Shown: positions 2,570 to 36,703 of the stretch, piece after piece
How positions within the stretch are numbered: the first letter of the stretch is position 1
Layout: the number at the start of each line of letters is the position of its first letter
Assembly: GCA_016935315.1 (NCBI GenBank)
Contig: JAFGRD010000027.1
Coordinates: 1-36,703 of the forward strand
Length of the DNA: 36,703 nucleotides
Direction of reading: 5' to 3'
Source: Pirellulales bacterium
GTDB taxonomy: Bacteria > Planctomycetota > Planctomycetia > Pirellulales > Thermoguttaceae
Program-made: the position numbers and the translations under genes
Notes under the pieces: model-generated
Told to the model about the DNA's origin: nothing
The model's database searches: none
The model's input: only the letters and a program-made list of their open reading frames with translations

Positions 2570-3628
2570 GTGACCGACGAGCCGAACAACGCGAGCCAGC
2601 GACCGCAAGACCCGCGCGAGGACGACGCGGGCGAAGGCGTGGTCGAGCAGGCGGGGGCCGGCCTGGCACCGGCAAGCGAACCGGGGCCGCCCGCCGAGCC
2701 GAAGCCGGCCGAGCCGCCGGCGCCGGAAACGGCGGTTGAGACGACCGTGGAGACCTCGCCGGGACAGCCGGAAGTGGCCGAGCAACTGGAGACGATGGTG
2801 GTCGAGGAGGCTGCCGTGCCGGTGGAAGTGTTGACGCAGGCGGAAACACCCTTGCAGGCGGAACCGCTTGACCAGGCCGACGCGGTCCCCCAACCGCCGG
2901 TGGCGTCACCGCCCGAGGCAAAGCCCGCGCCGGAACCGGAAACTGTGTTGGAACCGGAGCCTGCACCGAAGCCGGTGGCTGCGAAGCCGAAGGCCGCGCC
3001 AGCGCGTGGGGCAGCCGCCCCGGCCGGCAGCGCGGCCGGCAGCACGTCCGCGGAAGCGGCGGCAACGGAAGAGCGCCCCGAGGAACCGAAGTCGGAGAAC
3101 ATGGACTGGTACATCCTCAAGGTGCAGAGCAACCGCGAGGATTCGATCCGCGACGGATTGTTGCGACGGGTGGCGATCGCCGGCCTGGAACGGTATTTCG
3201 CCGAGGTGATCGTGCCGACCGAAAAGGTCACCGAGTTCAAGGGGGGCAAGAAACGGGTAAGCAAGCGCAAGCTCTACCCGGGCTACCTGGTCGTGAACAT
3301 GGAGATCAACGACGACACGTGGTTCCTGGTCCGCGAGACGCCGGGCATCGGCGACTTCACCGGAGCGGCGGGCCATCCGACGCCGATGTTGCCGCACGAA
3401 GTCTCTCGCATCGTGGCCAAGCAGGAAGAGAAGAGCGAGAAGGCGCCCAAGCTGAAGATCGGCTTCAGCCCGGGCGACCAGGTGAAAATCAACGAGGGAA
3501 CGTTCGAGAATTTTGAAGGCGAAGTGGAAGCCATCGACGAAACCAACGGACGGGTGACGGTGATGATCAACATATTCGGGCGCAGCACGCCCGTCGAATT
3601 GGAATATTGGCAAATCGAAGCGGTGTGA
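2570..3628 (+). CDS. nusG: Transcription factor NusG with long Pro/Glu/Ala-rich N-terminal extension
   Basis: NusG binds RNA polymerase and affects pausing, Rho termination and coupling to ribosomes. The conserved part begins at [11 protein letters not shown] (about residue 178), with the NGN domain including KLYPGYLVV, and ends with a KOW domain (PGDQVKI...[12 protein letters not shown]) near residue 345. That portion alone is about 175 residues, the normal family size. The frame remains open upstream to a GTG at 2570, giving 352 residues. The extra 177 residues are rich in Pro, Glu, Ala and Val and look disordered. An alternative start is ATG 3101, preceded by cggag. I favour the long form because its composition is protein-like, and the short form would leave a 609-bp hole inside a tight operon. 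rplK follows after seven bases. Confidence 0.9.
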
Positions 3629-3635
3629 GCGACCC

Positions 3636-4061
3636 ATGGCGAAACAATTGCAGGGAGAAGTGAAGTTCCAGGTTCCCGGCGGTCAGGCGACCCCGGCGCC
3701 GCCGGTAGGCACGTCGTTGGGCCGGTTTGGGATCAACCTGGGGCAGTTTGTACAGCAGTTCAACGACCGGACGAAGGATGCCGGGGGAATTCCGATTCCC
3801 GTAGTGGTTCGCGTCTACAACGATCGCAGCTTCGATTTCGTCACCAAGAGCCCCCCGGCGGCCGAGTTGCTGAAGCGCGCGGCCGAGATTGCCAAGGGCT
3901 CGGGAGTTCCCAACAAGGAGAAGGTCGGCAAAGTGAGTTCGGCCCAGGTCGAAGAAATCGTCAAAACCAAGATGGCCGACCTCAACGCCCGGGACGTCGC
4001 ACACGCCCGGCGAATGATCGAGGGAACCGCCCGAAGCATGGGGCTGGAAATCGAGGATTAG
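3636..4061 (+). CDS. rplK: 50S ribosomal protein L11
   Basis: A 141-residue ribosomal protein of the GTPase-associated centre, which binds the 1070 region of 23S rRNA together with L10 and L7/L12. The full-length family pattern is clear: an N-terminal PPVG loop, VVxVYxDRSF, PPAAELLK, GSGxPNK, and the C-terminal MxDLNARD and IEGTARSMG. The loop that is PPVGPALGQ in most bacteria reads [10 protein letters not shown] here, so the second loop proline (position 26) is Thr. Substitutions in this loop are known to lower thiostrepton sensitivity. Stop and the next start (rplA) are five bases apart, in the usual rplKAJL order. Confidence 0.98.
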
Positions 4062-4066
4062 AGATC

Positions 4067-4750
4067 ATGGTGAAGCAATCGAAACGTATGAAGGCCCTTG
4101 CCGAGCTGGCGCCGAGCAAGACCGCGTTGCCTCTGGACGACGCGGTGGCGATGCTGAAGAAGTTCAACACCACCAAGTTCGACCAGTCGGTCGAGGTCGC
4201 CATGCGGCTGGGTATCGACGCGAAACAGGCCGACCAGATCGTCCGCAGCTCGATCGTCCTGCCGCACGGGCTGGGCCGCACGCTGCGGGTGATCGTGTTC
4301 GCCAAGGGCGACAAGGTTGATGAAGCCCAGGAGGCCGGCGCCGACGAGGTCGGTGGTCCGGAACTGGCCGAGAGAATCAAGGGGGGATGGACCGATTTCG
4401 ACGTCTGCATCGCCTCGCCCGACATGATGGGCGTCGTCGGTCCGCTGGGGCGTGTTTTGGGTCCGCGCGGGCTGATGCCTTCTCCGCGTGCCGGCACGGT
4501 AACGCCCGACGTCGGCAAGATGGTCAAGGAATACAAGGCCGGAAAGGTCGAGTTCCGCAACGACTCCGGTGGCAACGTCCATGCGGTGGTCGGCAAGCTG
4601 AGCTTCGACACCCCCAAGCTGGCGGAGAACATCCGCACCTTCGTCAACCACGTGGTGGGGCTGAAACCGTCGGCGGTCAAAGGTCAGTATCTCAAAGGGA
4701 TCGCCATCAGCGCAACGATGAGCCCGAGCGTCCGAGTCCAGCCCCTCTAG
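4067..4750 (+). CDS. rplA: 50S ribosomal protein L1
   Basis: A 227-residue L1-stalk protein that binds 23S rRNA near the E site; in several bacteria it also represses its own mRNA. It is full length, with the conserved patterns [17 protein letters not shown] and [20 protein letters not shown], and the C-terminal SVRVQP ending. The ATG lies five bases after the rplK stop, so coupling is likely. An L1-binding operator could lie near the rplK start, but I could not identify one with confidence. Confidence 0.98.
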
Positions 4751-4769
4751 ACATCTCCCTAGTGCCAAC

Positions 4770-5291
4770 ATGAGCAAATACGTTAAGAACCTGATTACCG
4801 ATCACCTGCGAGAGCGACTGCAGAGCGTCAACGACGCGCTGTTGGTCAACGTGGTCGGATTGGATGCCAACGCCAACAATCGGTTGCGGGCGGAGCTGCG
4901 CAGCAAAGACATCAACGTGATGGTGGTCAAGAACAGTCTGGCCGCGCGTGCCACGGCGGGCACGCCGCTGGGGCCGATGTTCGACGGACTGGCCGGAACG
5001 ACGGCGGTTTGCTGGGGAAGTGAAGACGTTGTGAGTCTCGCCAAGGAGATCACGCGACTGGCCCAGGAAAAGCAGTACGAAGCGTTCGGGGCCCGCGGCG
5101 GCGTGATGGACGGCGAGTGCCTGACATCCGAGCAAGTCACCCAGGTCAGCAAGTGGCCCAGCCGAACCGAACAGCTCAGCCTGCTCCTGGGACAGATTCT
5201 CAGTCCGGGCGCCAGTCTACTCAGCCAGTTGACCGGCCCCGGCGGAGCGCTGGCCAGCCAGATCGAGCAGAAGGCGAAAGAGGAAGAGTAA
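4770..5291 (+). CDS. rplJ: 50S ribosomal protein L10
   Basis: A 173-residue protein that anchors the L7/L12 dimers to the ribosomal stalk. Family traits seen are the N-terminal SKYVKNLITDHL start, VVKNSLAARA, and a helical C-terminal tail (residues about 130-173) of the kind that binds L7/L12 dimers. The start codon is 19 bases after the rplA stop, with no strong Shine-Dalgarno sequence. The gene precedes rplL by 165 bases, a longer gap than the others in the operon. Confidence 0.96.
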   Translation: MSKYVKNLITDHLRERLQSVNDALLVNVVGLDANANNRLRAELRSKDINVMVVKNSLAARATAGTPLGPMFDGLAGTTAVCWGSEDVVSLAKEITRLAQEKQYEAFGARGGVMDGECLTSEQVTQVSKWPSRTEQLSLLLGQILSPGASLLSQLTGPGGALASQIEQKAKEEE

Positions 5292-5456
5292 GGAGCACGT
5301 GGCCAGGGAGGGTCCCGGCGAATCGCGCCGAAAACACACAGCAACGTTCGGGAGCCGTCCCGGACGGCATACCGAAAAGAACCGTTCAAGTTACATACTG
5401 CTGGCGGCGGGTCGTGATCTAACGGCCGGACCGCCGCGCCAAGGTGAGAAAGGACA

Positions 5457-5876
5457 ATGATTGCGATGGCGACAGATGCAGCAACCCGCGAGTTTTCCGC
5501 GCAGGCCCACGAGTTGGGCGACAAGATCGTGGGCCTTACGCTCAAAGAGGCCAAGGAACTCAGCGACTACCTCGAAGAGGTCCACGGGATCAAGCCCGCC
5601 GCCGGGGGCGGTGCGGTGATGATGGCTCCTGCCGCAGGGGGGCCAGCGGACGCGGAAGAGGAAAAGACCGAGTTCGACGTGGTCTTGGAGAGCTTCGGCG
5701 AGAAGAAGATCGGCGTGATCAAGGTCGTGCGTGCCGCGAGCGGACTCGGCTTGAAAGAGGCCAAGGATCTGGTCGAAGGCGCCCCCGCGAAGGTCAAAGA
5801 AGGCCTTTCCAAGGAAGACGCCGAGAAGCTGAAGACCGAGTTGGAAGAGGCCGGCGCAACGGTGTCTATCAAGTAG
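5457..5876 (+). CDS. rplL: 50S ribosomal protein L7/L12
   Basis: An approximately 139-residue stalk protein that recruits translational GTPases. It has an N-terminal dimerisation helix region, an Ala/Gly/Pro-rich hinge (about residues 42-64), and the conserved C-terminal domain with [33 protein letters not shown] and the final EAGATVSIK. Two ATGs are possible, 5457 and 5466. The aaagga at 5449-5454 is very close to the first and a little far from the second, so the start is uncertain by three codons. The N-terminal domain is more divergent than the C-terminal one. Confidence 0.96.
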
Positions 5877-6177: not shown

Positions 6178-9100
6178 ATGGCTACGTTGGCTGAAAGACG
6201 CTTGAAGCCCACAGAGATTCGTTCCTTCGGCAGCCTCCGCGCCCCTCACGATATTCCCGATTTGACCGACATTCAGACCCGCAGTTACGCGGAATTCCTC
6301 CAATACGACGTCCCCTGGCAGAAGCGGAAAGACCAGGGAATCGAGAGCGTGTTGCGGGAGATCTTTCCCATCGAGAGCTACGACAAGAGCCTTCGGCTGG
6401 AATACCTGCGGTACGAGCTGGGCAAGCCGCGTTACGAGCCGGACGAATGTCGCCAGTTGCGCCTGACCTATGGCCGGCCCTTCAAAGTCTGGCTGCGGCT
6501 GACCAAGGAGGAACCCGTCGAGGAAGAGGTGTACTTGGGCGACGTCCCGATCATGCTCGGCGGCGGCGAGTTCATCATCAACGGGGCCGAGCGCGTGGTG
6601 GTCAGCCAATTGCACCGCAGTCCGGGAGTCGATTTCGTCCTGGACATCGAGGGCGGAGGCGAGCGCCGGCTGCACAGTTGCCGCATCATTCCCGAACGCG
6701 GAAGCTGGATCGAGTTGAACGTCACCCGCAAGGAAAGCCTCACGGTGCGCATCGATCAGAGCGGCAAGTTCTCGATCATGACGCTGTTGCGGGCGATGGA
6801 TCCGAAATACGGCGAGAACGTGGAGTTGCTGCGAGTCTTCTACGACGTGGAGAAGGTCAAAGTCGTCGACGGCCGAAGCGCCGTGAAGGTGGAAGGAAAG
6901 CTGGCCGTCGGCGACGTGGTGTATCCCGCCGGCAGCGAGCGGGCGGGGGAAGTCCTGGTCGAGTGCGGCCAGAAGATCACCAAGAACGCCGCCGAGTTGA
7001 TTTGCACCTCCGGCCTGAAAGAGGTCGAGGTCATGGAAGAACCCAAGAATCCGTTGCTGATCAGTGCCTTGGCCGACGACAACACGGCCAGCCACGAGGA
7101 GGCCCTGTTGCGGATCTATCAGCGTCTGCGCCCCGGCAACCCGCCGCAGTTGGAGAAGGCCCGGGCGCTGTTCGCCGAGAAGTTCTACGACACGAACCGT
7201 TACCGATTGGGTCGCGTGGGCCGTTTTCGCATCAACCGGAAGCTGGGGCTGAACATTCCCGAGACGGAGATGACGCTGCGGCCCGAGGATTTGATTGCCG
7301 CGATCAAGTACCTGTTGCGGCTGCGCGACAGCGACGTGTCCGCGGAGGTTGACGACATCGACCATCTGGGAAACCGGCGGCTGCGTACGATCGACGAGTT
7401 GGCCTGCGACGAGCTGCGCAAGGGCTTTCTGAAGCTGCGCCGCACGGTGCAGGAGCGGATGAGCCTCAAGGATCTCGAAGACATGACGCCGCGCAGCCTG
7501 GTGAACCCCAAGAGTATCTCGGCGGCAATCGAGTACTTCTTCGGTCGCGGCGAACTCTCGCAGGTGGTCGACCAGACCAATCCCCTCTCGATGCTCACGC
7601 ACGAGCGGCGGCTCTCGGCCCTGGGCCCGGGCGGTTTGAACCGGAAACGGGCCGGGTTCGAAGTCCGCGACGTGCACATCTCGCACTACGGGCGGATTTG
7701 CCCCATCGAGACTCCGGAAGGAACCAACATCGGATTGATCTCCAGCCTGGCGATTTACGCGGCCGTCGACGAGTACGGATTCCTGGTGACGCCGTATCAG
7801 AAGCTCCATGGCGGCAAGCTGACGGACGAGATCGAGTGGTTGCGGGCGGATCAGGAGCACGAGGCCTATCTGGCTCCGGCCGACGCTCGGATCGAAAGGG
7901 GCCGGCTCGTGGGCGAGGCGATTATCGCCCGGCACCACGGCGACTTCGAGATGGTCCCCGCCGACAGGGTCGAGTACATCGACGTCGCCCCCGCCCAGAT
8001 GGTCGGTGTTTCGGCCGGCTTGATCCCGTTCCTGGAGCACGACGACGCGAACCGGGCCTTGATGGGGTCCAACATGCAGCGTCAGGCCGTGCCGCTGCTG
8101 GTCAGTGAACCGCCGCTGGTGGCCACCGGCATGGAGAAGCAGGCCGCCCAGAACTCCAGCATGCCGGTCCATGCACGCCGCAAGGGAAGCGTCACCTACG
8201 TCGATGCCGGGCGAATCGAAATCGGCAGCGAGTCGTATCCGCTGCGGAAGTTCGTGGGCCTCAACGAGCGCACCTGCCAGAACCAGAAGCCGATCGTCGG
8301 CATGGGCGACAAGGTGGAAAAGGGCCAGGTAATCGCCGACGGCGCCGGCACCTACCTGGGTGAGCTGGCCCTGGGTCGCAACGTGCTGGCGGCCTTCATG
8401 GCTTGGGACGGGTTCAACTTTGAGGACGCCATCATCATCAGCGAGGAGCTGGTCGAAAACGACACGTACACCTCGATCCACATCGAGGAGTTCGACATCG
8501 AAATCCGCGAGACGAAGCTGGGGCGCGAAGAATTCACCCGCGACATCCCCAACGTCAGCGAAAAGATGTTGCGCAACCTCGACGAGAACGGCATCGTGCG
8601 GGTCGGCACGTACGTCAACCCGGGCGACATTCTGGTGGGCAAGGTCTCGCCGAAGTCGAAGACCGAGTTGACGCCCGAGGAAAAGCTGTTGCACGCCATC
8701 TTCGGCCGCGCCGGCGAAGACGTGAAGAACGATTCGCTGGAGGTGCCCTCCGGCGTGGAAGGGATCGTGATCGACACCCAGAAGTTCTCCCGGCGGATGA
8801 GCCTTTCGGAAGAAGAGCGCAAGGCGTTCGAAAACGCCCTGAAAGAAGCCGAGGCGGAGGGCAACGGCAGGATCGCCGCCGCGTTCGGCGAACTGGTCGG
8901 GCAGATCGAGGACGTGCTGAAGAAGAAGCTGGCCGACGAGGACGGCAACCCCCTGGTCGAAGGCCAGGAGCACCGCTATGTGGCTGAGCAGGCCCATCAG
9001 TTCAACCTCGACACGCTCGACATCCGCAGCCCTCAGCGCCGCGCCGACGTGGAGAAGATCCACAAGGCCCTCTGGCCGAACGTCGAGGCGACCATCGACG

Positions 9101-30828: not shown

Positions 30829-31224
30829 ATGTTCTTCCGAATCGATTTCTCCGATGGCCTGGCCATCTACGCCCAAGTGGTCCGCCAGGTCAAATTCGCC
30901 GTCGCCGGCGGGGCGCTCAAGGCCGGCGAGCTGGTCCCCTCGGTGCGGGAACTGGCTCGCCAGTTGGCCATCAATCCCAATACGGTCGCCCGGGCCTATC
31001 GCGAGCTGCAGGCCGACGGCGTTTTGGAATCGGTCCGGGGTACCGGCCTGGCCGTGACCGCCGGGGCCGAGAAACTCTGTCGCACGCAGCGGGTCGAGCT
31101 GATTCGCACGCGGTTGCAGCAGGTCCTCGTCGAGGCCAGACAAAGCCGGCTGGACGCGGACCAACTGCGAACGCTCGTCGAAGGCGAGCTTCAGGCCGTC
31201 GAGCAACAGGAGCCCAGAACATGA
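30829..31224 (+). CDS. GntR-family (YtrA subfamily) transcriptional regulator
   Basis: A 131-residue DNA-binding protein. The N-terminal winged helix-turn-helix (about residues 10-80) shows the YtrA-type pattern IYAQVVRQVKFAVAGGALKAGELVPSVRELARQLAINPNTVARAYREL, split here as IYAQVVRQV, GELVPSVRELA and INPNTVARAYREL. A short helical C-terminal region of about 50 residues replaces the large effector domains of other GntR subfamilies, as usual for YtrA. YtrA-type genes typically lie in ABC transporter operons that they repress. This one has its own promoter with an overlapping palindrome, and its stop overlaps the next start (ATGA at 31221). The inducing signal is unknown; in other bacteria it is often cell-envelope antibiotics. 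Confidence 0.92.
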   Translation: MFFRIDFSDGLAIYAQVVRQVKFAVAGGALKAGELVPSVRELARQLAINPNTVARAYRELQADGVLESVRGTGLAVTAGAEKLCRTQRVELIRTRLQQVLVEARQSRLDADQLRTLVEGELQAVEQQEPRT

Positions 31225-32162
31225 AACCGGTGATTCGACTAGAGAACGTGACCAAGCGGTTCGGCGCCCAGACCGCGCTGAGCGACGTGTCGCTCGAGGT
31301 GGGGCCCGGCGTGGTCTATGCCCTCTTGGGCGAAAACGGCGCCGGAAAAACCACGGCTATCCGCATCATGCTCGGTTTGGCCGAGCCGAACTCCGGCCAG
31401 GCGGAAGTCCTGGGGCTGCGCAGCGACCGGGACGGATTGGCCATCCGACGCCGCATCGGCTACGTCCCCGAGCAGCCCACGCTCTACGACTGGATGCGCG
31501 TCGGCGAGATCGGCTGGTTCGCGGCCGGTTTCTACGGCGACGGGTTCCTGCCGCGATACTACGAGTTGGCGGCCCGGTTCGGGCTGCCGGAACGCCGGAA
31601 GCTCAAGACGCTCTCGAAGGGGATGCGGGCGAAGGTGGCCCTGTCGCTGGCCCTGGCCAACGATCCCGAACTGCTGGTGCTCGACGAGCCCACGTCCGGA
31701 CTCGACGCCCTGGTTCGCCGCGAGTTTCTCGAAAGCATGGTCGATCGGGCGGCTGCCGGGAAGACCGTTCTCTTGTCGAGCCACCAGATTGCCGAGGTGG
31801 AACGGGTGGCCGACGTCGTGGCCGTCATGCGCCAGGGTCGGCTGGTGCTGGTCGAACGACTCGACGAGCTGAAGCGGCAGACCCGCGAGCTGACGATTAC
31901 CCTGGCCGACGGCGCCGATGCGCCGCCGGACCTCAACGGCGACGTCCTCTACCGTTGCCGCAAGGGACACCAGTGGCAATGGCTGGTGCGCCACATGGCG
32001 GAGGCACAACTGGCCGATTTGCGGGCGCATCCGTCGGTCCGTGGCCTGGAGGTTCGCACCCCGAGCCTCGAGGAGATCTTCGTGGCCTATATGCAGGCGG
32101 GCCGGCAAACCGACGACCCGGCCGAACAGACCCAGCTTAGCGAGGAGGCACCGGCACCATGA
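31221..32162 (+). CDS. ABC transporter ATP-binding protein
   Basis: A 313-residue ATPase that powers the adjacent membrane protein. Walker A is GENGAGKT (residues 37-44), the Q-loop is YVPEQP (81-86), the signature is LSKGM (131-135, a common variant of LSGGQ in this subgroup), Walker B is LLVLDEP (151-157) and the H-loop is SSH (186-188). The approximately 90 residues after the ATPase core form an extra C-terminal domain, followed by a polar tail. Both ends overlap neighbours by ATGA, so it should be made in step with the regulator and permease. Export and stress-response roles are typical for YtrA-linked systems; the substrate is not evident. Confidence 0.94.
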   Translation: MKPVIRLENVTKRFGAQTALSDVSLEVGPGVVYALLGENGAGKTTAIRIMLGLAEPNSGQAEVLGLRSDRDGLAIRRRIGYVPEQPTLYDWMRVGEIGWFAAGFYGDGFLPRYYELAARFGLPERRKLKTLSKGMRAKVALSLALANDPELLVLDEPTSGLDALVRREFLESMVDRAAAGKTVLLSSHQIAEVERVADVVAVMRQGRLVLVERLDELKRQTRELTITLADGADAPPDLNGDVLYRCRKGHQWQWLVRHMAEAQLADLRAHPSVRGLEVRTPSLEEIFVAYMQAGRQTDDPAEQTQLSEEAPAP

Positions 32163-34711
32163 GCCCGACGATCTTCTGGCGCCTGATCTGGAAAGAGTAC
32201 CGCATGCTGCGCGGCTTCTGGATCTGTTTGACCGTGGCGGCCGTAGCCATCCAGTTGCTGGCTGCCTGGTTCGTCGATCAGCCCGTCGAGGATCTGGTTC
32301 CCATCGTGCTCTCGGTTGCCCTGGTGATGCCCACCCTCTACGTGCTGGGTGGCGCGGCCACGTTGTTTGCCGTCGAGCGGGAGACGGGAACGTACGATTT
32401 CCAGCGGGCGCTGCCGGCGGCGTCCTGGCGGTCGTTCCTCGGCAAGCTGACCTATGCCGTGGCCAGCGCGCTGCTGATGTTCGCGATCCTCGCCCCGACA
32501 GCCTACGGCGTGTCGCGTTTGCGCGTCGCGCAACCGGAGGTCAATCTCCGCCTGTGTGCCGTGTGGGGGCTGGCCGCCGCCACGGCCCTGGTCTGGGGGA
32601 TGTTCTTTTCGCTGCTGACGAAGGCGCCGCTGAAGGCGGCCGTCATGGCGACCATTGTCGGGCTGTTCAGCGTCTACTGCGTGGCGTACTTCGCCGAAAC
32701 CATGTTCCACGCCGACTTCTGGCACGTCGCCCTGTGGATCCTGGCGGCTGCCGCCGTGGTGGCTCTGGTCGACCTCTGGCTGGGGCTGCGCTGGTTTCGC
32801 GAGAAGGCGATGTTCTCGTGGTGGGCGGCAAGGTGGAACCGCCTGCGAATCGTCGCAGCCGGCAAGTCCGCCGGGGCTTCCTCCCGGCCCGCGCGCCCCG
32901 GCGGCCCGCTCTTCGCCCGGCTGCTCTGGCAACAATGGCGGCAATCATCGCGGCTGCTGGGTGTGCTGGCCGCCACGAGTCTGCTGCTGGCGCTTGTGGG
33001 TATCGTCATGTATGGACTCCCGCCGCGCCAACGCGGGTTCCTCGGCCCGTTGGGGGCCGTGTCGCTGGCAGCGCTGATCTACTTACTGCCGCCGATAGTC
33101 GGTGCCTGCGTATTCCTCGGCGATCAGCACGCGCGGCGGTTTCGTTTCCTTGCCGAGCGTGGTGCGCCGGCCCCCTACGTCTGGCTCAGCCGCCAGATTG
33201 TCTGGGGCGCCGCGGCCGCCTGCTGGACGGCCTTGATCCTGGTGGCAATGCTGTTTCTCCTTTTCCGAGGCATGCCGGAAGCCGACGTTCTTCAGGCGAT
33301 GGGATACATGATCGGGTTCATCGTGCTGGCCTACACGTCGGGCCAGCTCATGTCGATGTTCCTGCGCAACGGTGCGATGGCCGTCGTAGCCACGGTGGTC
33401 CTTTGCGGTCTGCTCTGCTTCTGGTCGCGGTTGATGCACGCCATGCAGATCTCCTGGCTCTGGTCGGTGATCCCGGTCCCGCTGGCCATGCTGGCGGCCA
33501 CCTGGCTGCGGACGCCCCGCTGGCTGCTGGAGCGCAACGGGCTGCGCGGCTGGCTGTGGCCGTTGCTGGCGTTGCTGCTGCCGACGGCGGCAATCCTGAC
33601 CGCCGTTCCGCTGTATCGCGTCTTCGAGATCCCCTTCGCCGATCCGGGCTTTTCGCCCGAGAAGTCCTTCCGGCCGGCTGCCGAGGAGGAATTGGCCGCC
33701 GCCGAGCTCTATCGCCGGGCCGGCGAGTTGCGGACCTCCGCCCGGGTGCTCGAAGCGGAAGGGGATCTCGATGCGACCTGGGATCGCTATCTGGCGGCAC
33801 TGCGCATGGCCGATCGTCTTCGTGTACGGGGCGCCATTGCTGAGTTGCTGAACGCCGACCGGATTGAGACGGACGTCTACGGGGCTTTGCCCGACTGGGC
33901 GGCACGGCCCGGGCAGACCCCCGAGCGGATTCGCGGGGCCCTCGGGCAGCTCGACGAGCTGGCCCGGCGGCGCCCGTCGCCAAGCGACGCCCTCGAGGCT
34001 GATTTCTTTCTCACCCGGGAGACGCTCTCAGGGCACCTGGAGCACCCGCTGCCCCATAGCCCATTGAACACAGAAGTGCAGTTGGTGGTCTATTGCACGC
34101 GCCGGTTGCCCTGGGAGAAGGCCCGCGCGTTCCGCCTGCTCGACTTCCTCGCCCAGCGCGACCTGGAAAGGGTCCGCCTTGCCGAGCGGCAGGCCGCCGA
34201 GGGCAAGCGGATCACTCAGCCAACCGATGAGCTTGCGGGGCCGCGCCAGCAATGGCTGGAAACGACCCCCTTCCTGCGATTATGCTACAGCCAGCATGCA
34301 TCGCATCTGGTGCGCAGCATCCTCCGTATGGAAACGCGCCGCCGTGTGGTGCGTCTGCTCCTGGCGATCGAGGCTCACCAACACGAGCACGACCGGCTGC
34401 CCGAGCGGCTCGACGACCTGGTCGGACCCGATCTCGACGCCGTGCCTATCGACCCGTACAGCGGCTATCCATTTCGCTACTTCCCCCAGGGTCTGCCGAC
34501 GGCCGTTCCCTGGTCGGAGCCTTCTTCGCGGGATGAACACACGCTGGCGGCCGGCACGCCGCTGATCATGAGCGTGGGGCCCTGCATTCACGATTTGGGC
34601 GTCGGCGACGCCCCCGAACGCTACCAGGTCCAGCTACCCAGCGGCTACTGGTACCAGCCGGAGTCCGACGACGAAGTCTGTCGGCGCGCCTGGCTGTTTC
34701 CGCTGCCGTAG
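32159..34711 (+). CDS. Double ABC-2-type permease fused to a large soluble domain
   Basis: An 850-residue protein. Residues 1-230 and 250-490 look like two tandem ABC-2 membrane modules, each beginning with a related motif (FWRLIWKEYR, LFARLLWQQWR) and having about six hydrophobic segments. The first also has the ETGTYDFQRALPAASWRSFLGKL pattern typical of these permeases. Residues about 500-850 are soluble and mostly helical. Near residue 724 there is a stretch (AIEAHQHEHDRLPERLDDLV, then PIDPYSGYPFRY) resembling the C-terminal part of type II secretion pseudopilins, common in planctomycete proteins. Typical ABC-2 permeases lack this domain. Two fused modules could form a complete channel with two ATPase copies. 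The start overlaps the ATPase stop. Confidence 0.85.
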   Translation: MSPTIFWRLIWKEYRMLRGFWICLTVAAVAIQLLAAWFVDQPVEDLVPIVLSVALVMPTLYVLGGAATLFAVERETGTYDFQRALPAASWRSFLGKLTYAVASALLMFAILAPTAYGVSRLRVAQPEVNLRLCAVWGLAAATALVWGMFFSLLTKAPLKAAVMATIVGLFSVYCVAYFAETMFHADFWHVALWILAAAAVVALVDLWLGLRWFREKAMFSWWAARWNRLRIVAAGKSAGASSRPARPGGPLFARLLWQQWRQSSRLLGVLAATSLLLALVGIVMYGLPPRQRGFLGPLGAVSLAALIYLLPPIVGACVFLGDQHARRFRFLAERGAPAPYVWLSRQIVWGAAAACWTALILVAMLFLLFRGMPEADVLQAMGYMIGFIVLAYTSGQLMSMFLRNGAMAVVATVVLCGLLCFWSRLMHAMQISWLWSVIPVPLAMLAATWLRTPRWLLERNGLRGWLWPLLALLLPTAAILTAVPLYRVFEIPFADPGFSPEKSFRPAAEEELAAAELYRRAGELRTSARVLEAEGDLDATWDRYLAALRMADRLRVRGAIAELLNADRIETDVYGALPDWAARPGQTPERIRGALGQLDELARRRPSPSDALEADFFLTRETLSGHLEHPLPHSPLNTEVQLVVYCTRRLPWEKARAFRLLDFLAQRDLERVRLAERQAAEGKRITQPTDELAGPRQQWLETTPFLRLCYSQHASHLVRSILRMETRRRVVRLLLAIEAHQHEHDRLPERLDDLVGPDLDAVPIDPYSGYPFRYFPQGLPTAVPWSEPSSRDEHTLAAGTPLIMSVGPCIHDLGVGDAPERYQVQLPSGYWYQPESDDEVCRRAWLFPLP

Positions 34712-35202: not shown

Positions 35203-36435
35203 ATGGACGCAACCGACGGCGAAAACTCGAATATCCTCCAGGGACAGCGGCTGGCGTTTGTGGGCAAGCTGGCGAGCATGGCCCGGCGCGACGCGGCCAG
35301 GCTGGCCCGACGCCACGGGGCGACCGTCGTCGAGAAGCCCGACGCCGCCGTCCATCTGGTGGTCGTCGGCGAAGAGGAGCTGCCGCTGGGCGAGGCCGAG
35401 GGGCTGGTCGACTGGTTCGACGAGCCGACCCGCCAGGCCGCCGAGCAGGGGACGCTTCGGGTGATTACCGAAACCCAGCTCTGGCAGCGCCTCGGGCTGG
35501 TCGAGCCCCAGCAAGACGTCCATCGGCTCTACACGCCCGCCATGCTGGCCGAGCTGCTGGGCGTTCCGGTCGCGGTCATCCGCCGCTGGCACCGCCGGGG
35601 CCTGATCGTGCCGGTCCGCGAGGTGCGGCGGCTGCCCTATTTTGATTTCCAGGAAGTGGCCACGGCCCGACGCCTGGCCGAGCTGCTGGCCGCGGGCGTC
35701 TCGCCCCGGGCGATCGAAAAGAAGCTGGCCGCCCTGGCCCGCTATCTGCCCGGTGTGCGGCGGCCCATCGCCCAACTCTCGGTAATCGTCCGCGGTCCGC
35801 AGCTCCTGCTGCGCCAGGGCGACGGTCTGGTCGAGCCGGGCGGCCAGTTGCGGTTTGACTTCGAGGCCTGGGAACGCGAGACGCGGCCCGGCCCGACGCC
35901 CGACGGCTCCTCCCCCGCCACGACCGACGCCGTGGTGCCGCTGCCCGAGCCGCAGACGATCGATCCGGCCGCTGCCTCGCCCGAGCAGATGTGCCAATTG
36001 GCGGCCGAGTTGGAGGAAGACGGCCAGCTTGCGGCAGCCTGCGAGATGTATCGCGCCGCCATGGCCGCCGCCGGCCCCAACGCCGAGATCTGCTTCCAGG
36101 TGGCCGAGTTGCTCTATCGCCAGGGTGACCTCTCCGCCGCCCGCGAACGTTACTACACGGCCATCGAGCTCGACGAGGACTACGTCGAGGCCCGGGCGAA
36201 CCTCGGTTGCGTGCTGGCCGAGACGGGCCAGCGCGACCTGGCGGTAGCCGCGTTCGAGGGCGCCTTGGCCTATCACCCCGACTACGCCGACGTGCACTAC
36301 CACTTGGCTCGAACGCTCGACGAGACCGACGGCCGCGACCGGGCCGAGGACCACTGGCGGGCCTTTTTGAGGCTGGCCGCCGACAGCCCCTGGGCCGCCG
36401 AAGCCCGCGCCCGGCTGGGCCTCGCCAAAGAATAG
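35203..36435 (+). CDS. BRCT - MerR-type HTH - TPR fusion protein
   Basis: A 410-residue predicted cytoplasmic protein. Residues 11-98 resemble a BRCT domain (QGQRLAFVGKLASM...ARRHGATVVEKPDAAVHLVVV), as in bacterial DNA ligase. Residues 107-180 look like a MerR-type winged helix (LYTPAMLAELLGVPVAVIRRWHRRGLIVPV, in two parts, then YFDFQEVATARRL). Residues 186-222 form a short beta-rich piece, followed by a Pro-rich linker (225-255). Residues 258-405 hold three to four tetratricopeptide repeats, such as AEICFQVAELLYRQGDLSAA and YVEARANLGCVLAETGQRDLA. This suggests a DNA-binding regulator or adaptor with protein-binding repeats. No partner or target can be named. The ATG has only a weak purine-rich upstream site. 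Domain calls are by eye; BRCT is the least certain. Confidence 0.82.
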   Translation: MDATDGENSNILQGQRLAFVGKLASMARRDAARLARRHGATVVEKPDAAVHLVVVGEEELPLGEAEGLVDWFDEPTRQAAEQGTLRVITETQLWQRLGLVEPQQDVHRLYTPAMLAELLGVPVAVIRRWHRRGLIVPVREVRRLPYFDFQEVATARRLAELLAAGVSPRAIEKKLAALARYLPGVRRPIAQLSVIVRGPQLLLRQGDGLVEPGGQLRFDFEAWERETRPGPTPDGSSPATTDAVVPLPEPQTIDPAAASPEQMCQLAAELEEDGQLAAACEMYRAAMAAAGPNAEICFQVAELLYRQGDLSAARERYYTAIELDEDYVEARANLGCVLAETGQRDLAVAAFEGALAYHPDYADVHYHLARTLDETDGRDRAEDHWRAFLRLAADSPWAAEARARLGLAKE

Positions 36436-36589: not shown

Positions 36590-36703
36590 GTGCAGAATCG
36601 AATTGTCCTACCACTTCGGCCGGTGAACTTCGTGAGCTTCTGGGACGCCGCGCGGTTCTGCAACTGGCTGCACAACGGCCAAGGCAACGGCGACACGGAG
36701 AGC
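36590..36703 (+). pseudogene. 5'-truncated SUMF1/FGE-sulfatase-type fragment, runs off the window
   Basis: The last frame encodes RPVNFVSFWDAARFCNWLHNG, then QGNGDTES (bases 36617-36703). This matches the middle of formylglycine-generating-enzyme-like domains common in planctomycetes (VSFWDAxRFxNWL). A TGA at 36587-36589 stops the frame just upstream, and only GTG 36590 could start it. The 100 or so N-terminal residues normally before this motif are absent, and I saw no remnant in the other frames of 36436-36590. It may be a remnant gene or a frameshifted one; the rest lies beyond the window. Confidence 0.5.

Follow-up and report, generated by a model that had tools for sequence, protein, structure and literature searches.

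What is a planctomycete doing with one protein that joins a BRCT domain, a MerR-type DNA-binding domain and TPR repeats? The question is raised by an open reading frame near the end of a 36,703-nucleotide stretch of DNA from a Pirellulales bacterium; the whole stretch that was analysed is called the window here. An initial annotation, made from the sequence, had described the three domains, had not recognised the combination from characterised proteins, and had suggested a possible coupling of DNA state to protein recruitment. The features of the reading frame, in window positions, are as follows.

35203 to 36435, forward strand: the whole reading frame (BRCT, winged helix, beta linker, TPR), 410 amino acids plus stop codon, with an ATG start.
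35233 to 35493, forward strand: BRCT domain, residues 11-97, over the cut-off of Pfam PF00533, present in the structural model and with BRCT domains of RFC1 and LigA as fold matches.
35260 to 35262, forward strand: Val20, a position held by Thr in 11 of 13 BRCT-bearing members of other classes and in none of the 52 rows of alignment A1.
35527 to 35745, forward strand: MerR-type winged helix, residues 109-181, with a PF13411 match of 49.5 bits, DNA-bound MerR proteins as fold matches, and Arg127 and Trp129 unchanged across the 52 A1 rows.
35749 to 35868, forward strand: conserved beta linker, residues 183-222, with GQLRFDF at its end (35842-35862) and strands modelled at low confidence.
35869 to 35976, forward strand: variable, low-confidence linker, residues 223-258, poorly conserved and with pLDDT below 50 at residues 226-248.
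35980 to 36417, forward strand: TPR array, residues 260-405, matched by Pfam TPR models, with pLDDT of 91-98 over residues 261-400 and four helix pairs plus one more helix in the model.

The presence of BRCT, MerR-type and TPR domains in one chain is borne out, given that the Pfam cut-offs are passed and the folds appear in an AlphaFold model. The full-length model, generated from 52 orthologues (mean pLDDT 81.9), places the BRCT at about residues 11-97, the winged helix at 112-181, short strands at 193-218, disorder at 226-248 and TPR helices from residue 260. As the test of its proposal, the initial annotation had set beforehand a BRCT fold at residues 11-98 and a winged helix at 107-180, and both are found in the predicted structure. 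Several Pfam TPR models match between about residues 261 and 404 (for example TPR_11, 41.8 bits against a cut-off of 26.8), and the array resembles designed TPRs, OGT and MamA in the PDB, with Z of about 20. The MerR_1 model matches residues 110-177 far above its cut-off of 21.6 bits. The weakest domain by sequence is the BRCT, for which the Pfam match (residues 8-64) reaches 24.0 bits where 21.3 are required. Its order of strands and helices is nevertheless present in the model, with block-mean pLDDT of 86-96 for residues 11-60, 57 for 61-70 and 86-89 for 71-100. The searches made here returned no characterised protein with all three domains, in keeping with the initial annotation.

Because TPR matches filled the fold search with the whole protein, a second model was built of residues 6-225; it is of lower confidence (mean pLDDT 72.1, pTM 0.44), so that its linker fold is tentative. 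In fold searches, where even unmatched models commonly reach a Z of 7-8, the top matches of this second model are the BRCT domains of RFC1 and LigA (7u1a_A, Z 10.4, rmsd 2.7, 81 residues aligned; 9a6z_B, Z 9.7), and Foldseek also returns 9a6z_B with E 6.2e-05. The BRCT had been called DNA-ligase-like, and this holds in part. LigA, the NAD-dependent ligase, is the best NCBIfam BRCT match of the window protein (E 0.0047, far below the cut-off of the LigA model) and is matched by fold, but the likeness is not exclusive, since RFC1 equals it by fold and a Pol III epsilon-BRCT model beats LigA in both of the BRCT-bearing proteins from other classes that were scanned, L122 and L126. The genome of the window has two BRCT domains over the cut-off, one in this reading frame and one in a 687-residue frame that is presumably LigA itself.

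The small margin of the BRCT over its cut-off, 2.7 bits, would suit a chance fusion or an artefact of gene calling, and it is conservation that already refutes this explanation and leaves it a negligible probability. A scan of genome contigs gave 170 candidate stretches, of which 162 were confirmed and the best 80 kept, with best-segment identities of 49-80%. Among these best 80 of the 162 loci, 78 are planctomycete by title and two are titled only as bacterium, all align with the window protein over at least 250 residues, and in 79 the match begins at residue 16 or earlier and so takes in the BRCT part. The one other locus, L065, lies at the end of its contig and matches from residue 94 on, and L049 is likewise truncated by a contig end, after residue 351. 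Of 392 genomes drawn from the phylum, 40 belong to the window's class, which its record titles suggest is Planctomycetia; the protein is present in 38 of these 40 and missing in G266 and G377.

Relatives outside the class provide the setting that the window lacks. The 352 genomes of other classes in the same draw hold 20 matches, one of which (G029) is TPR-only, leaving 19 members; the loci taken outside the class are those of the 19 members and a second copy in G216, with G029 left out. By alignment, 13 of the 19 have the BRCT and six do not, and the Pfam BRCT model is over its cut-off in all three BRCT-bearing members scanned. Profiles and a gene tree indicate that homology of the window protein to this MerR-TPR family spans the winged helix, the GQ-ending linker and the TPR. 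With a profile of the winged helix and linker (A4), 22 members were counted outside the class, a count that includes G050, whose TPR match is weak and below the cut-off, sets the second copy in G216 apart and leaves out nine weak matches with E from 4e-16 to 9e-10 (two in G206, one each in G182, G138, G228, G135 and G386, and second matches in G100 and G025). Of these weak matches, five were examined, and the three of the five scanned with Pfam have no TPR match.

Accounts of bacterial non-homologous end joining (NHEJ) usually give it two components, Ku and LigD, and many of the relatives lie near one or both. A Pfam Ku match lies within 4 kb and on the same strand in 17 of the 22 members, and in an 18th case, G264, a C-terminal piece of Ku adjoins the member. 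The exceptions are G186, with a split Ku on another contig, and G050, G054 and G249, which have a member and no detectable Ku. At the level of whole genomes, Ku is found in 16 of the 19 member genomes versus 27 of the other 333 (Fisher p about 1e-13, with kinship ignored). A short ATP-dependent ligase lies between Ku and the gene in 10 of the 19 loci (in L128 the Ku is the C-terminal piece only), L133 has the ligase with Ku just beyond the stretch examined, and five loci (L123, L126, L135, L138 and L139) have Ku with no intervening ligase. Neither Ku nor the ligase was found near the gene in the stretches of L127, L129 and L137. LigD is encoded on the opposite strand, downstream in eight of the 19 loci and upstream in L128, L138 and L139. 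All ten neighbour proteins run against Pfam, from seven loci, match Ku, ligase or LigD models. The preceding frame stops within about 15 bases of the gene start in L131, L134, L138, L139, L155 and L156. Four of these loci (L138, L139, L155 and L156) belong to family f18, in which a plain MerR-TPR gene follows Ku by a few bases and LigD lies upstream on the opposite strand; this is a BRCT-less arrangement inside planctomycetes.

The association with Ku is not reciprocal. A member is found in 18 of the 43 Ku-positive genomes outside the class, and among 20 further Ku loci from 18 genomes, some of which end at contig ends, a plain MerR-TPR gene lies beside Ku in two (L155 and L156), with no MerR-TPR match at E 1e-3 in the other 18.

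The same gene order occurs on plasmids of another phylum. A tblastn search with the plain MerR-TPR protein of L156 matched 34 plasmid records, all from Burkholderiales genera, and in 32 of them the sequence immediately upstream, in the same orientation, matches Ku (in CP086300 across the record start, assuming a circular molecule). The remaining two are partial matches: no Ku was found in the unannotated 8.7 kb around that of AP023181, and none is annotated within 4 kb of that of CP099649. Annotation agrees in the seven of the 32 that were examined, where Ku is the preceding gene in each. Cupriavidus necator NH9 and N-1 are among the strains with the gene next to Ku. In these loci (L169-L175), Ku occupies about positions 4040-4990 and the MerR-TPR gene about 4990-5820, the gene ends overlap in L171 and L172, and the product is annotated as a TPR or HTH protein only; one plasmid relative carries the label MerR family regulator. 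The plasmid proteins that follow Ku, such as WP_078201789.1 and WP_244818596.1, proceed, like the window protein, from winged helix through GQ-ending linker to TPR (Pfam was run on one). They differ in that the BRCT is absent in all seven examined and Ku adjoins, whereas the window protein has the BRCT and its genome has no detectable Ku. The window protein from residue 105 on has no plasmid match at 1e-8; therefore, its link to the plasmid proteins goes via relatives of the L156 type and alignments. The Ku query matched 635 plasmids, most with no MerR-TPR match, and no MerR-TPR partner was found at the Ku loci of Cupriavidus pinatubonensis and Gemmatirosa.

Going by gene order and homology, the ancestral setting of the MerR-TPR family was probably a bacterial NHEJ operon with Ku, ATP-dependent ligase and LigD. 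The family looks like the third gene of some such operons, to which the BRCT would have been added in planctomycetes. The search for BRCT-less relatives covered Planctomycetota genomes and plasmid records. Because the BRCT is missing in six of the 19 members of other classes and in the seven plasmid proteins, it is not basic to the NHEJ link.

Most sampled members outside the window's class sit in Ku-ligase-LigD loci, but none of Ku, ATP-dependent ligase and the LigD Prim-Pol domain has a match in the genome of the window, an assembly that is 95.28% complete in 172 contigs. Within the class, Ku is found in three of the 40 genomes (G369, G087 and G216), with the main copy of the gene on another contig or more than 40 kb from Ku. 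In a tree of 51 rows, the class forms one clade (98/94) among Ku-linked rows. Besides the window, the rows are 12 of the 51 other A1 rows, with class labels taken from titles and similarity, 16 of the 29 loci L090-L118, and L121-L140, L155 and L156. The plain MerR-TPR rows were chosen as the root, and support is weak at several forks on the path from there to the class. The simplest history on this tree, dependent on the chosen root, would be an NHEJ-linked ancestor followed by loss of Ku, with the protein kept. The sister of the class clade is L140, on a very long branch that makes its placement unsure. This locus (2968-3987, reverse strand, in G216) is a highly divergent second copy beside Ku in which the MerR and BRCT Pfam matches are gone, and a normal copy lies elsewhere in G216.

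A conserved operon partner in the window's class was considered and rejected, since no neighbour cluster is universal over 110 class loci. With each neighbour cluster named from one representative and contig ends making the counts lower bounds, a YTV-domain gene (PF07639) lies upstream on the same strand in at least 33 loci, LipB is a neighbour in at least 26, an unannotated cluster lies downstream in at least 21, and HEAT repeats are found in at least 18. The YTV-domain gene, for example at 6318-7793 on the forward strand of L039, is the commonest upstream same-strand neighbour in the class. With no constant neighbour, the present role of the protein is unanchored in the class. In the window itself, the upstream forward-strand stretch 31221-34711 holds an ABC-transporter-like ATPase (31221-32162) that overlaps an 850-residue membrane-like protein (32159-34711), both identified by eye and with no link seen to the BRCT-MerR-TPR gene. 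At the other end, at 36620-36703 on the forward strand, a frame still open at the window end reads 'WDAARFCNWLHNGQG', which by eye we take to be like SUMF1-type sulfatase-modifying proteins.

On the window's side of the class, the BRCT differs from that of most relatives at one position. A Thr at the end of strand 1 is presumably part of the phosphate pocket in phosphate-binding BRCT domains, and the BRCT of RFC1 binds a 5'-phosphate through that Thr. Neither the Thr nor a Ser is present there in the window, which has Val20, or in any of the 52 A1 rows, where the residue is V, L, I, A or C throughout. Thr precedes the invariant Gly in most BRCT-bearing members of other classes (11 of 13) and also in 10 rows of f4, one family in the window's class, in the tree alignment. 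Given the missing Thr, a damage-sensing BRCT is less likely in the window than in its relatives. Loss of the Thr does not simply track loss of Ku, given that f4 keeps the Thr and yet is mostly without Ku. Within the class (29 rows), the least conserved domain is the BRCT, with a mean pairwise identity of 36%, and the most conserved is the winged helix, at 59%; the linker has 51% and the TPR 49%. Over 13 members of other classes, BRCT, winged helix, linker and TPR have 43, 51, 45 and 48%.

From these values, together with the loss of the pocket Thr in the window's part of the class and a genome in which Ku and LigD go undetected, a general TPR adaptor might be proposed, in which neither the BRCT nor the winged helix binds DNA any longer and for which the NHEJ setting is merely history. 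The winged helix is strongly conserved, with Arg127 and Trp129 invariant, which would be unexpected had DNA binding been lost, and a pure adaptor is accordingly judged improbable.

The same conservation suits a sequence-specific transcription regulator at least as well as it suits a DNA-bound adaptor. Such a regulator would place its winged helix on an operator and sense or bind a partner through the TPR, with the relatives controlling Ku and ligase and the class members controlling other genes. In the fold search with the model of residues 6-225, the winged helix has DNA-bound MerR structures among its closest matches (TipAL, 2vz4_A, Z 8.7; GlnR, 4r4e_B, Z 8.6), the family profile matches GlnR at 1.9e-10, the annotation of one plasmid relative points the same way, and genes that adjoin the operon they control are common. 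The winged helix is held in common with the MerR regulators GlnR, TnrA, TipAL and RacA, but the window protein continues into a beta linker and TPR. The long C-terminal dimerisation helix of MerR regulators is not present in the model, where helix 168-181 gives way to a short helix and to strands, and fusion to a BRCT is unusual for a regulator. A crude test for an operator upstream of the 52 orthologues gave no word that clearly stood out. The best-scoring spaced 6-mer occurs in 19 of the 52 against 5.8 expected, with the commonest words of shuffled sequence in 18-24, and a few 8-mers, each in seven or eight of the 52 and including two in eight and a third, lie slightly above the shuffle maxima of 5-6. 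Some of these 8-mers contain TTGACA, a usual -35 box. On balance, a regulator is a serious alternative that falls somewhat short of an even chance.

The linker appears to be old. The Gly-Gln of GQ..[LFI].F is the sole pair of invariant columns over 41 members from two phyla; GQxx[LFIMV]x[FLYV] fits all 58 aligned members, and the stricter GQ[LMR]x[LFI]xF fits 42 of the 58. The stricter form, GQLRFDF in the window, bears what we take to be a resemblance to a sliding-clamp-binding peptide. That candidate was rejected: five short proteins of the phylum match the winged helix and linker profile, all five have GQ at the end of the linker, and part of the motif is modelled as strand, so the motif is taken as structural. 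One of the five has DUF433, and the three scanned have no TPR or BRCT match in Pfam. In the fold search, Rv2018 (5af3) aligns over residues 100-217 of the N-terminal model, taking in the winged helix and linker, with Z 8.8. Rv2018, HTH-DUF433 proteins and the short MerR-linker proteins are alike with the window protein in the winged helix and linker and differ in their C-termini, which carry DUF433 or other sequence. The linker is therefore taken to be an old companion of this type of winged helix.

The reading that is preferred, with moderate confidence, is that the window protein is a scaffold bound to DNA and derived from NHEJ, which was retained without Ku and serves another DNA transaction. 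The winged helix would hold the protein on DNA, the TPR array would bind a partner, and the BRCT, found among the members seen only in planctomycetes, would add a further point of contact, to DNA ends or to repair proteins. With the phosphate-pocket Thr gone on the Pirellulales side, protein contact is probably how the BRCT works there. In the window's class, the gene would now serve a different DNA transaction, as suggested by its near-universal presence though nearly all sampled genomes are without Ku. The scaffold is preferred to a regulator because of the fused BRCT and the Ku-ligase operons, although conservation of the winged helix favours a regulator; against the scaffold stands the one-sided Ku link, with a member in fewer than half of the Ku-positive genomes and most Ku plasmids without a partner. 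The two roles can be compatible with each other. The suggestion that the protein couples DNA state to protein recruitment thus fares unevenly: it suits the NHEJ-operon context of the relatives, but not a genome without detectable Ku or LigD and a BRCT without the pocket Thr.

The domains and NHEJ are already known; going by the open-access PMC literature, what would be new is that a MerR-TPR protein, with or without a BRCT, partners Ku and LigD. No MerR, TPR or BRCT partner of Ku or LigD appears in the open-access PMC matches listed, which cover titles, starts of abstracts and passages. Two candidate links between TPR and NHEJ were rejected on the matched passages, given that 'TPR' is a trimethoprim marker in PMC6011247 and a figure-legend abbreviation in PMC5862659. 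In the main text of PMC10632474, a source of transposon data, the words BRCT, MerR, TPR and tetratricopeptide are all absent.

More broadly, it may be proposed, tentatively and with less confidence than the scaffold itself, that NHEJ in some members of two bacterial phyla has a third factor of its own, a DNA-bound MerR-TPR scaffold that is fused to a BRCT in planctomycetes and that in Planctomycetia outlived Ku and LigD to become a core, Ku-independent genome-maintenance protein. A third gene that recurs in planctomycete and Burkholderiales loci would extend the set of Ku plus LigD. Eukaryotic NHEJ ligases and polymerases use BRCT domains, and a BRCT joined to a MerR-TPR protein would be a bacterial parallel to them. 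Finally, a gene that is near-universal in a class in which 37 of the 40 sampled genomes are without Ku points to a further DNA process in planctomycetes.
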